From: Candidatus Bathycorpusculum hydrogenotrophicum
Lineage (GTDB): Archaea > Thermoproteota > Bathyarchaeia > Bathyarchaeales > Bathycorpusculaceae
Reading direction: 5' to 3'
NCBI GenBank assembly: GCA_009783705.1
Contig: WRCX01000007.1
Location: 1 to 52,460 of the forward strand
Length of the DNA stretch: 52,460 nucleotides
Positions within the stretch are counted from its first letter, which is position 1. Every line of letters begins with the position of its first letter. Below the pieces are notes generated by a model. That model had not been told where the DNA came from. It saw nothing but the letters and a program-made list of their open reading frames with translations, and ran no database searches. The translations under genes and the position numbers were made by a program. This document shows, one piece after another, positions 26,132-34,249 of the stretch.

Positions 26132-26935
26132 CTATTGTGAGCTAAAGAAAGATTCCAGTTTGGAGGTTCCGGATTTTTTGAGCACCAATGCGCAGTCTTT
26201 GGGGTCTAGGGCTTTAAATTCTAAACCTAAGCTGACCAGCAGGCGCTGTACGTCTTTGGCAAGGCTGGGTGCGGCAAGAACGGCACGTACCGGACGGTTA
26301 ACTTTGGCTTTGATGGGTTCGATGTATTTTGAGAGCTGCAGTGCAGCGTCTTTGGTGGCAGCTCGACGTTTAACTTCAACGATAACAAGGTTGCCGTCTT
26401 TATCTTCACCATAGATGTCTATAAAACCGGGTTCGACATGCTTTTCCCAGCTGATGGGTTTGAAGCCTTCTTCAAACAGGCTGGGTTTTAGAAGTATGGC
26501 ACGATGCATATCATCCTCGCTTGCATGCAGGAGAAATTCACCTGCATCAAAGAGGTTGATGGCTGAGACCATTAGCACTTTATCAAAGGTCGCTTTTACG
26601 CTTTCATGGGGTTTGCTACGAATACCCTGTATTTCGAGTTTGTTGTCTCTAACTTCGACATGAAAAACTCCTCCGGCAGGTTGCCAGTTAACGGGTTCGT
26701 AGCCAGTTGGGCGGTGAACAAGCAAAGATCCATCAGATTTGACGATGATAAGTCGCTCACCGGTCTCAAGGGTCGAGCTGGCTCGGCCGTCATAGTGCAC
26801 ATGACAGCTACCTGCGATAAGAAGGGTGTGTCGGTGTGCAAACGCACGCTCGATTAAGACGGTCGCTTCTGCTAAGGTGGGTTCTTTTAACACTGCAAGT
26901 TTGTTATTTTGAGTCTGCAAATTGTTTTCCGCCAA
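26132..26935 (-). CDS. nucS: Mismatch/branched-DNA endonuclease NucS (EndoMS)
   Basis: RecB-like nuclease that cuts mismatched or flapped DNA. The 267-aa protein has the N-terminal DNA-binding half-pretzel domain (LLIAGSCHVHYDGRASSTLE) and a C-terminal nuclease domain with the catalytic pattern GFIDIYGEDKDGNLVIVEVKRR (Asp, Glu, Lys). The tail SKLESFF resembles a PIP box for PCNA binding. The start is a TTG with no ribosome site, so perhaps leaderless. It is divergent from the methyltransferase gene 49 bp away. Confidence 0.95.
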   Translation of the reverse strand: MAENNLQTQNNKLAVLKEPTLAEATVLIERAFAHRHTLLIAGSCHVHYDGRASSTLETGERLIIVKSDGSLLVHRPTGYEPVNWQPAGGVFHVEVRDNKLEIQGIRSKPHESVKATFDKVLMVSAINLFDAGEFLLHASEDDMHRAILLKPSLFEEGFKPISWEKHVEPGFIDIYGEDKDGNLVIVEVKRRAATKDAALQLSKYIEPIKAKVNRPVRAVLAAPSLAKDVQRLLVSLGLEFKALDPKDCALVLKKSGTSKLESFFSSQ

Positions 26936-29149: not shown

Positions 29150-29773
29150 TCAAGTTTCGTCGGTTTGTATCTCGTCAGTTTGTTCTTCTGGTAGAGATTT
29201 GGCGGCTTCTGCTGTCTGTTTCTCTGCTAAGAGCAACATCTCAATGAGTTTCTTTTGGTCTATCTCTGCGCGTGTTCGCCAGTCTAAAAACAGCTGGCCG
29301 CTTTCATCTTGTGTGAGGTAGCCATGTCGGATATAACGATCGAGGTTTAGACCCACTTTCCAGCCGGGCATCTTTTCGTTTAGTAATTTTTCGATGTCTT
29401 TGCGGTTTGCTTGGCCTTTTTTGCTGATAATATAGCTGATTGTGACAGCTAAACCTGCGAGATCATCTACACGCCAGCCCATTAGTTTATCTTTGGAGGC
29501 AACATCACGTAAAACTACAAAAAAGCGAGCCTTATCTAACTCCTCAATTGTTGGATTTTCGGGGGTTTTTTCTTCCTCAAAGACAATTTTAACCATCATA
29601 TCCATTGGCTTTAGGTAGTCGTCTAAGACGTCGAGAACCTTGGGGTAGTCACTACCTAGGGCTTTGTGTAACTCCCAGCCTTTCACGCCGGGTTTTGCAT
29701 GGCGTTTGTAGAAAAGCATCTGGACTGCTTTTTTGACTTTACCTGCATAGAGGCCTTTTTTTCTTGTACTCAT
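29150..29773 (-). CDS. Winged-helix SMC partner (kite/Nse1-Nse3-like)
   Basis: A 207-aa protein likely forming the third subunit of the SMC complex. I choose ATG 29773, which overlaps the kleisin-like stop (ATGA), over the mapped ATG 29794. Two winged-helix units can be traced: about 10-95 (LHKALGSDYPKVLDVLDDYL) and 105-180 (AVTISYIISKKGQANRKDI, then GYLTQDESGQLFLDWRTRAEID). The second resembles the end of Nse1/MAGE winged helices, where a hydrophobic turn and Gly precede a LxxR-E element. ScpB is the alternative kite. The family assignment is inference from pattern and operon. Confidence 0.7.
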   Translation of the reverse strand: MSTRKKGLYAGKVKKAVQMLFYKRHAKPGVKGWELHKALGSDYPKVLDVLDDYLKPMDMMVKIVFEEEKTPENPTIEELDKARFFVVLRDVASKDKLMGWRVDDLAGLAVTISYIISKKGQANRKDIEKLLNEKMPGWKVGLNLDRYIRHGYLTQDESGQLFLDWRTRAEIDQKKLIEMLLLAEKQTAEAAKSLPEEQTDEIQTDET

Positions 29774-30603
29774 GGTTGTTTGCCTTCTCGCCATTTTTGC
29801 CAGTCTTCATAAGATACCACAATAGGAACCGAGACGGCTTGTGTTGCCAAAGTTTCCTCTCTGGGGGTCTCGTAGGGTATCAGGGTTATGGTTTCTTCTA
29901 GGCGATCGATTTCTAGGGTGGCGTAGCCGTAGGTTACCAGAAAGCTTGTGAGAAAGGCGCGTTGGACGGTTTTTTCGTAGGTGTCAGCACCTATGAAGTC
30001 CCAGTAGTTAATTTTTCCATCGGCGCTTTTTTCTTTGACTTGATGTTTGAGTTCTTGCCAGCAGTCGTTGAGTTCTTCACTAAATTCCTTGTCGCTTAGG
30101 ACACGTTGTTTTATCATTTCTTCTTGGCTCACTGAACCGATTTCAACTGCGTTAACGTCTATGTTTTTCCAGCGTGCACCCAGAGACTCCAAGGTCTCCC
30201 AGTAGAGCAGGCCTTGGGATAGTGTTTGGAGGCTTAGCTGTTCGAACTCGACCAACGGCGTCCAGGCGGAGGAGAATACTTGGATCATGCCCTCTTTGCT
30301 TGTTTGGCGGATTTTTTCCTCCAAAATAAAGGGGTCAGTATAGAGTGAGGTGGAGCGTTGTTTGACCCATTCGCTTTGGATTTTGATAACTGAGGCGAGG
30401 TGATGAAGTGCTTCGGCGTCAAGGCGGAGTTCGTCGGGGTGGTTCCAGTGGGGGAAGTATTGTTTGACTATGGCAATTATGTCATCAACATTTAGGGTGA
30501 AGGGGTCAACTTGATGGTTTTCTATGGCGATACACATTTCGATGATGTATTCAAGGCGTTCTTTGCCTAGTTTTTTGTCGGGGATATTGATATTGGTGCT
30601 CAT
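29770..30603 (-). CDS. Kleisin-like (ScpA-type) protein
   Basis: A 277-aa protein with the ScpA pattern: an N-terminal helical domain (about 14-85: IEMCIAIENHQVDPFTLNV, DDIIAIVKQYF, LRLDAEALHHLASVIKIQS) that in kleisins binds the SMC neck, an acidic variable middle, and a C-terminal winged-helix part (TVQRAFLTSFLVTYGYATLEIDR) that would bind the SMC cap. The start overlaps the SMC stop by 4 bp and the end overlaps the kite-like gene. Not an obvious close ScpA; recognition rests on pattern and position. Confidence 0.75.
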   Translation of the reverse strand: MSTNINIPDKKLGKERLEYIIEMCIAIENHQVDPFTLNVDDIIAIVKQYFPHWNHPDELRLDAEALHHLASVIKIQSEWVKQRSTSLYTDPFILEEKIRQTSKEGMIQVFSSAWTPLVEFEQLSLQTLSQGLLYWETLESLGARWKNIDVNAVEIGSVSQEEMIKQRVLSDKEFSEELNDCWQELKHQVKEKSADGKINYWDFIGADTYEKTVQRAFLTSFLVTYGYATLEIDRLEETITLIPYETPREETLATQAVSVPIVVSYEDWQKWREGKQP

Positions 30604-32519
30604 TTGATAACTTCTCGCACTAGAGAGTTTCCTTCGAGGTTTTGCACAGTTATGACGTGGGCATTTTGTTGGGCAAAGGTGATTTGGCTGGGTGTGATGA
30701 TAACATATTGGGATGCGGCGTCTTTTATCATGGCGACTAGGACTTTGGCTATCATTTCACGGTTTTTGGGGTCCATGTGGATGTCGTATTCGTCAACTGC
30801 ACGAAAAGGTGAGCGGACGTGATGTTGGAGAGCAAGTAGAAAACCCATGGTGGCGGTTGTGCGTTCACCGCCGCTTTGTGTGTAGGCATTGAGTGTGACG
30901 GGTTTGCTACCTTTGAAGCCAACATAGATGTCTAAGCCGGCGGTTGTGATGTCTTGGGGGTTTGAGAGTTGAACCTCTCCTGTTGCTAGGGTTTGGTTCA
31001 TGATGCGTTGATATTCCAAGTTGACACGACTTAGTAACTGCTCAATAACAGTGCGCCATGCATTCATACGGATTTGGACTTCTTCGAGTGTTTTTTCGCG
31101 CTTTTCAGCAACTAGTTGGGCTTTTTCTTTGAGTTCAAAGTAGAGCTTAGAGTAGGATTCGTATTGGCGTTCGATTTCATCAGATATATTGGAAAGGGCA
31201 ACTAGATGACCAGCAGTTAGACCCAATTCTTCTTGGATTTGAGCGGCGGATTTAGTTACAGCAATGCGTTCACCGGATTGTTGGGCATTTGTGAGAGCAA
31301 CATTGAGGGTTTCTTGGGCTTCTTTTAGGGATTTTTCAATGGTTTCCTGTTCTTTTAGAGCACGATCGTGTTTGAATTCTAAGAGACTCGAAGTAACGCG
31401 TTTATCAAGTGTTGCAGCGGTGAGTTTGTTTGTGGATTCTTCGAGGCGTTGCACCACGGCTTGGTTGGCAATGATTTGTTTGGTAGCTTGCTCTATTTGC
31501 TGTTGCGAGTGCTCTAGTTTTTCTCGGAGGTTGTTGGGATGCAACAATTTGAATTTGCTGATATCTATAATGGATTGGAGGTACTCCGCTTCAGAGAGCA
31601 GGGGTTCTATGATGGCGAACTGAGATTGATTTTGGGCAATTTGGCGTTCTAAGCTTAGTCGTTCCTCAAACATGAGTTTGATTTCCTCTTTGAGGTTATG
31701 TTGCTCGACGCGTTGTCCATCTAGTTCGCCAAGTAGGCTTTGGCGTTCTTCATCGATTTTGCCCAGCGCCTGCTGAGTGCGGCTAAAATTAGCCTGTAAG
31801 CCTTTTAGTATGTCTTCTCGGCGTTCAACCTCTGCCCAAACTAATTCGCGGTCCAAAAACCGTCTTTTTAGTTGAAGCTGTTTTTTCTCTTGGAATTTTT
31901 CGTATTGTTCGCGCCAATAATTGAGGGTTTGCTCAGCTTGCTCAAGGAGTTTACCTACTGATTCCTCTTGGGTTAGAATACGACTAAGTTTGGTTTTAGC
32001 GGCAACTACGTTTTCGCGAAAAGGCTCAAGGCCCACGGCTTCTTCGACCATACGAAGTTTGTCTATGTTGCTTAGCACACTAAACTGCTCAACCATATTT
32101 TGGTGCATAATGATAAGCATGTTGTCTGGGTCTACTCCGAATTTACCTAAAAGTCGTGCTACGTCTTGTTTTGAGGCGGCATGGTTTTCGAGTTCGAACC
32201 AGTATTTGCCGTCTTGGCGCAGAATACGGGTTAGAAACAGTTGGTCTTTGTTGAATTTGGGTTCGGGTCGACGGTTATTTTGTTTTGTGTTATCCAATAT
32301 TAGGGTGACGCGAGCTTGATCTTGGCCCCAGCGAATGAGATCGCTGAGTTTACGGCTACGTTCTGTGCTGGTCTGGCCTAAACCTACGCTTATGGCAAGT
32401 AACAAAGAAGATTTGCCTGCGCCATTGGGACCACCAATTATGTTAACGCCCTGCTTGAAGGGTACGCGGGCATATTCGTAGCTCATAAAATTTTCAACGA
32501 TAAGTTCTTGAATTAACAC
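30600..32519 (-). CDS. Compact SMC ATPase, Smc5/6-like head
   Basis: A 639-aa SMC-type ATPase, about half the usual SMC length. N-terminal head: ENFMSYEYARVPF then Walker A GPNGAGKS (30-37), Q-loop region IIMHQNMVEQF (137-146). Coiled coils about 175-300 and 335-500 are separated by only about 35 residues, with no room for a canonical hinge and no CxxC zinc hook. C-terminal head: signature QSGGER (548-553), Walker B FRAVDE (572-577) with DEYDIHMDPKNRE, and QYVIITPSQI. The last three match the Smc5/Smc6 pattern better than bacterial SMC or Rad50. GTG start, GAGG 8 nt upstream; TATA-like TTTTAATAC at 32563-32571. Confidence 0.9.
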   Translation of the reverse strand: MLIQELIVENFMSYEYARVPFKQGVNIIGGPNGAGKSSLLLAISVGLGQTSTERSRKLSDLIRWGQDQARVTLILDNTKQNNRRPEPKFNKDQLFLTRILRQDGKYWFELENHAASKQDVARLLGKFGVDPDNMLIIMHQNMVEQFSVLSNIDKLRMVEEAVGLEPFRENVVAAKTKLSRILTQEESVGKLLEQAEQTLNYWREQYEKFQEKKQLQLKRRFLDRELVWAEVERREDILKGLQANFSRTQQALGKIDEERQSLLGELDGQRVEQHNLKEEIKLMFEERLSLERQIAQNQSQFAIIEPLLSEAEYLQSIIDISKFKLLHPNNLREKLEHSQQQIEQATKQIIANQAVVQRLEESTNKLTAATLDKRVTSSLLEFKHDRALKEQETIEKSLKEAQETLNVALTNAQQSGERIAVTKSAAQIQEELGLTAGHLVALSNISDEIERQYESYSKLYFELKEKAQLVAEKREKTLEEVQIRMNAWRTVIEQLLSRVNLEYQRIMNQTLATGEVQLSNPQDITTAGLDIYVGFKGSKPVTLNAYTQSGGERTTATMGFLLALQHHVRSPFRAVDEYDIHMDPKNREMIAKVLVAMIKDAASQYVIITPSQITFAQQNAHVITVQNLEGNSLVREVIK

Positions 32520-33217: not shown

Positions 33218-34249
33218 ACTATCGTATCCTGAAATTATTTCGCTAGTTTCACTTATGTAAGTTGTATGGTAAAGTTAGCAAGTCAACGTAAGCTTAAGTG
33301 GTGTTTAGTTCACTTTAAAGCCGGTGAGCTGACAAGTAATTGGACTGCTAAATATCTGGGTGTTTCTCAGAGAAGATTTCAACAGATATACAAAGAATAC
33401 CAAATAACAGGAAAAATACCCTCCATCGGATTAAATGTTGGAAGACCTAAAAAAGAAGTACCTCAACAATGGAAAAGTCTAATCAAAGAACAGTATGAAA
33501 AAACACACTGCGGCGCACTTTATTTAGAGAAAAAGCTAATCACAAAGCATGGTGTACATATTTCTCATAATATAATTCATCAGGTTTTGCTAGAATTGGT
33601 TACGCTGATCACGAAGTATCAAAGCAGAGGCGAAGAAAACCTTGGATACACTATGAGCGAACTCATTCGCTGTCTTTGGTGCATACGGATTATCATTATT
33701 GCAAAGATGGGCGGTATCTTTGTGCTGTGCTAGATGATGCTTCTAGAAAAGTTTTGGCGGCAGGTGAGTTTGATCATAAGACCACTCTAAATGTGCTTAG
33801 CGTTTTGGTGCAGGCGTGTAGTGTATGTGGGCCCTATCACCCTATTTTGGCGGTGGTTACGGATCATGGGTCAGAGTTTTATGCTAATAAGCGTGATGCG
33901 AGAGGTTTTGCTGAGCATGTGTATGAGCAGTTTCTTAAAGAGCGAGGTATCGAGCATGTTTTGTGTGGGGTTAATCATCCGCAGACTAATGGGAGGATTG
34001 TGAAGTTTTATGATCTCTACATTAGGCATCGCGGTCGGTTTGTAAACTTGGAGGATAGGCTTTTGTGGTATAATGAGGAGAAGCCTTATGGTGCGTTTAA
34101 TTTGGGGATTGCGGAGACGTCAAGTCAAGCTTTTATCCGCATGATGCGTCCTGAGGTCTGGTTAGGGCTAGCCGCAAAGATGTTTAACTGGTGAATGACA
34201 TGAAATCAGAAACAAATCTTCGGGCGAAATAATTTCAGGATACGATAGT
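33218..34249 (+). mobile_element. 1032-bp insertion sequence with perfect 26-bp ends
   Basis: Terminal inverted repeats at 33218-33243 and 34224-34249 are identical over 26 bp (they begin ACTATCGTATCCTG) and are flanked by an exact 11-bp duplication. The only gene is a DDE transposase with an integrase core, broken by a frameshift. Perfect ends and duplication show a recent insertion. The family looks like the IS481/IS3-type rve group; the 11-bp duplication is not diagnostic by itself. It sits just downstream of nusA. Confidence 0.9.
33266..34194 (+). pseudogene. Frameshifted DDE transposase (rve core)
   Basis: Two frames make one protein. Residues from 33266 give an N-terminal HTH (LTSNWTAKYLGVSQRRFQQIYKEY); the frame breaks at 33593-33596, where one base is missing, and the correct reading resumes as IGYADHEVSKQRRRKPWIHYERTH and on into 33676-34194. 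The core has Asp in VHTDYHY and Asp in VVTDHGSEF. The expected catalytic Glu in HPQTNGRIEKF is Val (HPQTNGRIVKF). So there are two lesions, and the enzyme is almost certainly inactive. Confidence 0.88.

Follow-up and report, generated by a model that had tools for sequence, protein, structure and literature searches.

The window analysed here, a 52,460-nucleotide stretch of the archaeon Candidatus Bathycorpusculum hydrogenotrophicum (phylum Thermoproteota, class Bathyarchaeia; contig WRCX01000007.1, positions 1 to 52,460), carries three adjoining genes for an SMC (structural maintenance of chromosomes)-type ATPase, a kleisin, and a tandem winged-helix kite protein (Table 1). An SMC ATPase, a kleisin, and a kite are thus encoded together, as in SMC-kleisin-kite complexes, and we propose that the three genes specify a small archaeal complex of the Smc5/6 branch.

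Gene layout and the short-armed ATPase

A first-pass annotation, made from the letters alone, had drawn three overlapping open reading frames at 29150–32519, and its coordinates are exact: all three frames lie on the minus strand and overlap through ATGA sequences. At the ATPase/kleisin junction the overlap is 4 bp, and the second ATG of the kite gene, at 29773, likewise overlaps the kleisin stop codon as ATGA. This ATG is very likely to be the kite start, because it creates the overlap, because residues 1–8 counted from the first ATG have predicted local distance difference test (pLDDT) values below 50 in the AlphaFold2 model, and because the kite of close relatives (e.g. at locus L001) begins at the matching position. 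No fourth operon gene is present within the window. In the host genome there is one match each for the ATPase, the kleisin, and the kite, and not the two distinct SMC proteins and two distinct kites of Smc5/6.

Table 1. Genes and protein features of the three-gene operon (window positions; A3 is an alignment of 37 ATPase relatives that was used as a profile)
Feature	Position	Strand	Remarks
SMC-type ATPase gene	30600..32519	minus	639 aa, GTG start; open reading frame as predicted
Walker A, GPNGAGKSS, residues 30–38	32406..32432	minus	Invariant in A3; pattern in 92/93 members
Arm tip, 10-residue loop, residues 318–327	31539..31568	minus	AlphaFold2 model
ABC signature, SGGER, residues 549–553	30861..30875	minus	92/93 members
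Walker B and D-loop, AVDEYDIHMD, residues 574–583	30771..30800	minus	Smc5/6 type; DE[YF][DE][IV]H[ML]D in 92/93 members
Nse4-like kleisin gene	29770..30603	minus	277 aa
Nse4_C-like C-terminal domain, residues 198–272	29788..30012	minus	Pfam and PDB profile search; would cap one ATPase head
Kite gene, tandem winged-helix, Nse1/Nse3 type	29150..29773	minus	207 aa from likely start; 214 aa from first ATG at 29794

The ATPase has neither a hinge domain nor a zinc hook. In its AlphaFold2 model (mean pLDDT 86) two arm helices (residues 165–317 and 328–415) are joined directly by the tip loop, and a joint-like break follows at residues 416–448. The 25 commonest Pfam matches of 37 ATPase members do not include SMC_hinge, and the CxxC motif of a hook occurs in none of 93. 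The N-terminal head and the signature are 310–433 residues apart in 89 members, compared with 920 in the canonical SMC of the same host, and among the matches listed at E < 1e-40 in a search of the phylum every ATPase open frame is at most 762 residues long. The tip itself varies in length and is mostly gone in the distant members of A3. The long arms and hinge dimerisation domain of Smc5/6 are accordingly missing here, and the short arms with no room for a canonical hinge that the annotation had described are seen alike in the Pfam matches, the tip loop, and the head-to-signature distance.

Affinities of the three proteins

The ATPase head motifs are of the Smc5/6 type. Besides the Walker B and D-loop region, the switch reads ITP (residues 608–610; [IL]TP in 92 of 93 members), where canonical SMC proteins have ISLR or ITHR, and the residue after the Q-loop glutamine is a non-glycine, as in Smc5/6; the corresponding motifs in the host's canonical SMC are DEVDAHLD, ISLR, and PQGTI. 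The top PDB match to the single ATPase sequence is yeast Smc5 (E = 5.8e-28). With the A3 profile, ten Smc5/Smc6 chains come first (3.7e-66 to 5.8e-53), followed by Pyrococcus SMC (9.7e-45) and condensin Smc2 (1.8e-38). RecN, which is absent from the head tree described below, scored far below Smc5/6 against the ATPase in sequence searches. Separately, the PADLOC profile mad3, from the MADS defence system, matches the C-terminal half of the ATPase (window 30600–31530, 5e-26), which suggests that the Mad3 head may be Smc5/6-like.

A tree built from the concatenated heads of 33 taxa (386 columns), a small set containing one Smc5 and two Smc6 sequences, with the human SMC2 and SMC1A heads taken as PDB database letters and SMC3 and SMC4 not included, separates the short archaeal ATPases (hereafter mini ATPases), Smc5, and Smc6 from canonical archaeal and bacterial SMC, SMC1, SMC2, Rad50, and SbcC with support of 99.5/100. 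The same split is recovered at 99.1/100 with 24 taxa, a set without SMC_f60, whose N-terminal head had been miscut, and SMC_f21. On this set the approximately unbiased (AU) test rejects a grouping of the mini ATPases with canonical SMC (p = 0.0075) or with Rad50 (p = 0.0076), and a Rad50 origin of the ATPase is rejected with it. Yoshinaga and Inagaki are said to have placed archaeal "SMC5/6-related" ATPases with Smc5/6 in 2021, a placement taken up in PMC9389158.

The kleisin is related to Nse4 through its C-terminal domain. The single sequence matches Pfam Nse4_C at 1.4e-5, narrowly short of the curated cut-off, and 38 of 40 kleisin relatives match the same family (best 5.6e-9). In a profile search of the PDB the top matches are all Nse4/EID3 chains (yeast Nse4 and human EID3, 1.8e-6 to 5.2e-6), with ScpA chains at 0.45 and 0.96. 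A direct hhalign comparison of the kleisin profile with a profile of 31 ScpA proteins from the phylum was also weak (E 0.015 for this single pair), and ScpA is rejected as the nearest kleisin; the C-terminal winged helices align in register, as two kleisins should. The Nse4-type (delta) kleisin that characterises Smc5/6 is therefore recognisable in this domain only.

The kite is assigned to the Nse1/Nse3 (MAGE) type chiefly by its predicted fold. Its AlphaFold2 model (pLDDT 79, predicted TM-score 0.64) is a tandem winged helix, and a Foldseek search of 350,542 PDB chains returned as the top four two chains of 7dg2 (Nse1-Nse3-Nse4) and two of 5hvq (MAGE-G1-NSE1), at 1.7e-5 to 8.2e-5, followed by MAGE-A4, JetB, ESCRT-II, yeast Smc5/6, and MukE chains. 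Sequence matches are weaker, with MAGE found in 6 of 40 members (best 0.0026). Since no kite among 98 members has more than two cysteines, a RING domain such as that of Nse1 is impossible.

Taken together, these comparisons make it highly probable that the ATPase, kleisin, and kite are homologues from the Smc5/6 branch. They bear out two assignments of the first-pass annotation, namely the Smc5/6-type C-terminal head (through the PDB profile ranking, the motif counts, and the head tree) and the tandem winged-helix protein resembling Nse1/MAGE (through the four leading Foldseek chains). The head-domain phylogeny that it had proposed joins the ATPase to Smc5/6, and the Rad50 grouping that it had named as counter-evidence did not occur (AU p = 0.0076). 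Its "ScpA-like kleisin" is indeed a kleisin, given Nse4_C in 38 of 40 relatives, but the likeness is to Nse4 instead of ScpA.

Distribution and gene neighbourhood

Among 80 Bathyarchaeia loci chosen by ATPase similarity, the three genes stand in the same order in 78, far beyond chance for an operon; of the two exceptions, L076 stops at a contig edge and the genome of L060 has its kleisin on another contig. The system is not confined to this class. In a sample of 398 genomes from the phylum, the kite was found in 157 (38 family labels) and the ATPase in 158; the two occur together in 152 genomes, with the ATPase alone in six, the kite alone in five, and neither in 235. The kleisin was found in all 40 kite-positive genomes tested and in one of 40 kite-negative genomes, which is ATPase-positive and has its match at a contig edge. 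Nse4_C alone was matched in 57 of the 398 genomes and in none of 14 control genomes, and 28 of the best 30 Nse4_C loci have kite and/or ATPase relatives within about 3 kb; in the other two (L097 and L098) the parts lie farther apart. Twenty further loci, 19 of them outside Bathyarchaeia, include 17 with the whole or nearly whole operon. At L127 and L128 (family label f40) the kleisin, kite, and ATPase genes are dispersed over about 10 kb and form no single operon, and at L135 an ATPase fragment lies upstream. The operon is conserved in Bathyarchaeia, where the annotation had proposed a survey, and other classes of the phylum share it; the failure of the small proteins to co-occur with the ATPase, which would have told against the idea, is not seen.

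A canonical Smc-ScpA-ScpB operon, with an Smc of 1184 aa, is present in the host as well (L139:6211–11316, contig C31). It includes ScpB, although archaeal Smc complexes without this kite are reported (PMC7055376). Across the 398 genomes the kite and a hinge-bearing SMC occur together in 75, the kite alone in 82, the hinge alone in 94, and neither in 147, counts in which divergent hinges may be missed. The three-gene system appears independent of Smc-ScpAB, since both are present in the host and no SMC_hinge match was obtained in 82 kite-positive genomes; many lineages of the phylum may have no other kleisin-SMC complex. Seven genomes of the host's genus (G080, G094, G148, G255, G293, G309, and G352) have none of the three genes and keep the canonical SMC, an apparent loss within the genus.

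A Lhr-type DNA helicase of about 950 residues adjoins or lies near the operon in 9 of the 20 distant loci, representing three family labels (L119–L125, L127, and L128), and in three Bathyarchaeia loci (L047, L058, and L062). An uncharacterised protein of about 230 residues is encoded beside the operon at 35 loci (27 Bathyarchaeia and eight distant, e.g. L011:4101–4814), usually divergent from the ATPase gene; it has no convincing Pfam match, and searching the host genome with a single sequence did not reveal it. In the window, a NucS endonuclease gene (26132–26935) lies about 2.2 kb downstream of the kite gene and is near the operon in a few close relatives too. Between RNA polymerase genes and the ATPase gene, two open reading frames in different frames (33266–34194) resemble, by eye, a broken insertion-sequence transposase. 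No kite relatives were found in viral contigs, where the ATPase matches are mostly short P-loop matches; a viral or mobile origin is rejected on these grounds.

A proposed Smc5/6-branch complex and its relation to known systems

The intact ATPase motifs, the homology of all three subunits, the operon, and the tight co-occurrence of its genes lead us to read the locus as an archaeal Smc5/6-branch SMC-kleisin-kite complex that acts in genome maintenance as an ATP-gated DNA clamp and has a single gene for each type of subunit; we put the probability of this reading at about 0.75. One SMC gene would stand for both Smc5 and Smc6, one kite gene for both Nse1 and Nse3, and the kleisin would be of the Nse4 type, so that the complex might comprise a homodimeric ATPase, one kleisin, and probably two kites. 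In SMC complexes generally the kleisin links the two heads, attaching to one at its neck and to the other at its cap; it also carries the kites, and the ATP-engaged heads are where DNA is clamped (PMC10512200). By analogy, ATP would bring two ATPase heads into engagement, the kleisin would bind the neck of one head and cap the other, and the kites on the kleisin, together with the engaged heads, would close on a DNA duplex until hydrolysis opened the clamp. As the tips of the short arms lack a hinge or hook to join them, a large SMC ring is probably absent; with no ring compartment, the main activity would therefore be that of an ATP-gated clamp or a short-step translocase. We regard this mechanism as having an even chance of being correct. 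The function is most likely genome maintenance at replication or recombination intermediates, alongside Smc-ScpAB or in its place. The Lhr-type helicase neighbours point to a repair context, and a role in repair itself is suggested tentatively, at somewhat under even odds, by the gene neighbours and by analogy with Smc5/6, itself a DNA-repair machine in our cells.

A number of observations weigh against the reading as a whole or in part. A fold search with the whole ATPase returned an archaeal SMC head as its top match and did not discriminate among SMC heads, and the AU test accepts all four placements beside Smc5/6 (H1, H4, H5, and H6), favouring no one branching order among the mini ATPases, Smc5, and Smc6. 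The N-terminal part of the kleisin is without a recognised relative, and the kite assignment draws on one predicted fold and weak sequence matches. We infer the assembly of the subunits from genes and single-chain models, through which the three proteins are known here; tip-to-tip contacts between the arms are possible, and the repair role derives from neighbouring genes and the Smc5/6 analogy. Several nearly complete genomes of the host's genus are without the system, which shows it to be dispensable in some relatives.

An alternative that retains the complex would make it a chromosome organiser, with arm tips dimerising through coiled coil to close a full ring that extrudes loops and replaces an absent Smc-ScpAB. 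The lack of an SMC_hinge match in 82 of the 157 kite-positive genomes, the single-copy chromosomal genes, and the loop extrusion by eukaryotic Smc5/6 in vitro (reviewed in PMC10512200) are in keeping with it. However, there is neither hinge nor hook, the tip is variable and mostly missing in distant members, 75 genomes including the host have both systems, and several relatives lack the three-gene system; we consider this role unlikely. Defence against plasmids or other circular DNA in the manner of Wadjet or MksBEF is less probable still. It would be suggested by the SMC-kleisin-kite set, by the patchy presence within one genus, and by the restriction of viral replication by eukaryotic Smc5/6 (PMC9458440). 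Against it, the JetC match to the ATPase is weak (5.7e-7) and far below Smc5/6, PADLOC gives no match for the kleisin or kite, JetB comes after Nse1/Nse3/MAGE among the fold matches, no JetD-type fourth gene was recognised among the recurrent neighbours (which were not searched exhaustively), and presence in the phylum is broad and mostly stable. Membership of Wadjet or MukBEF is rejected on these grounds; of the two kinships the annotation had offered, Smc5/6-Nse holds for all three subunits and Wadjet is not supported. That the ATPase might be a RecN- or Rad50-type repair protein with two unrelated small neighbours is extremely improbable: the arms are short, as in RecN, and the SMC_N domain is shared, yet the head tree and the AU test, the missing CxxC of a zinc hook, the Nse4_C and kite assignments, and, in the genomes tested, the restriction of the kleisin to kite-positive ones, with one ATPase-positive exception, all speak against it.

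If the Smc5/6-branch reading is right, the system could be a living archaeal Smc5/6 that predates the Smc5/Smc6 and Nse1/Nse3 duplications: homodimeric, with an Nse4-type kleisin and one kind of kite, its hinge dispensed with, and acting as a ringless clamp. This is a possibility that we hold with some reserve. Were it true, the kite-bearing Smc5/6 branch would be older than eukaryotes, and SMC-kleisin-kite machines could do without a hinge. Whether Smc5/6 acquired Hawks and later lost them, or forms a branch apart from cohesin and condensin, is a question raised by Wells et al. (2017; PMC5228436). An archaeal complex that pairs an Nse4-type kleisin with an Nse1/3-type kite favours the view that Smc5/6 split off early as a branch of its own. 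The origin of Smc5/6, an open question, becomes testable in archaea with one copy of each part, the three small genes offer a minimal Smc5/6 for structural work, and the system, in which the hinge is missing, tests what the hinge is for.

The available text of PMC9389158 describes archaeal "SMC5/6-related" ATPases that group with Smc5/6 (100/0.99), and only the ATPase, in agreement with the annotation, which stated that such ATPases had been noted before; the mini ATPase probably belongs among them. The available part of a survey of archaeal Smc, ScpA, and ScpB shows no sign of the three-gene system (PMC7055376). The literature searched, which did not extend to preprints, yielded no description of Nse4 or Nse1/3 partners in archaea, of the operon, or of a hinge-less form; within that literature these are new, as the annotation had surmised of the linked partners and miniature size, whereas the archaeal ATPases were already known.

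The SMC-kleisin-kite plan is shared with canonical archaeal and bacterial Smc-ScpA-ScpB, but the host's own version has a 1184-aa SMC with a hinge, ScpA and ScpB partners, and a separate head clade. MukBEF, MksBEF, and Wadjet (JetABCD) likewise combine a kleisin with a kite, and JetB and MukE appear lower down the kite fold search; they differ in ATPase family, in their long arms, and, in Wadjet, in the JetD nuclease. The closest known relative of all three subunits is the eukaryotic Smc5/6 core (Smc5, Smc6, Nse4, Nse1, and Nse3). Nse2 SUMO ligase and Nse5/6 were not recognised among the recurrent operon neighbours, the genomes not having been searched for them. The archaeal system departs from eukaryotic Smc5/6 in having a single SMC gene and a single kite gene where the latter has two of each, in arms that reach less than half the length, in the absence of a hinge, and in a kite without a RING domain; in common with it are the head sequence and motifs, the Nse4 C-terminal domain, the Nse1/Nse3 tandem winged-helix fold, and the use of kites with no Hawks.

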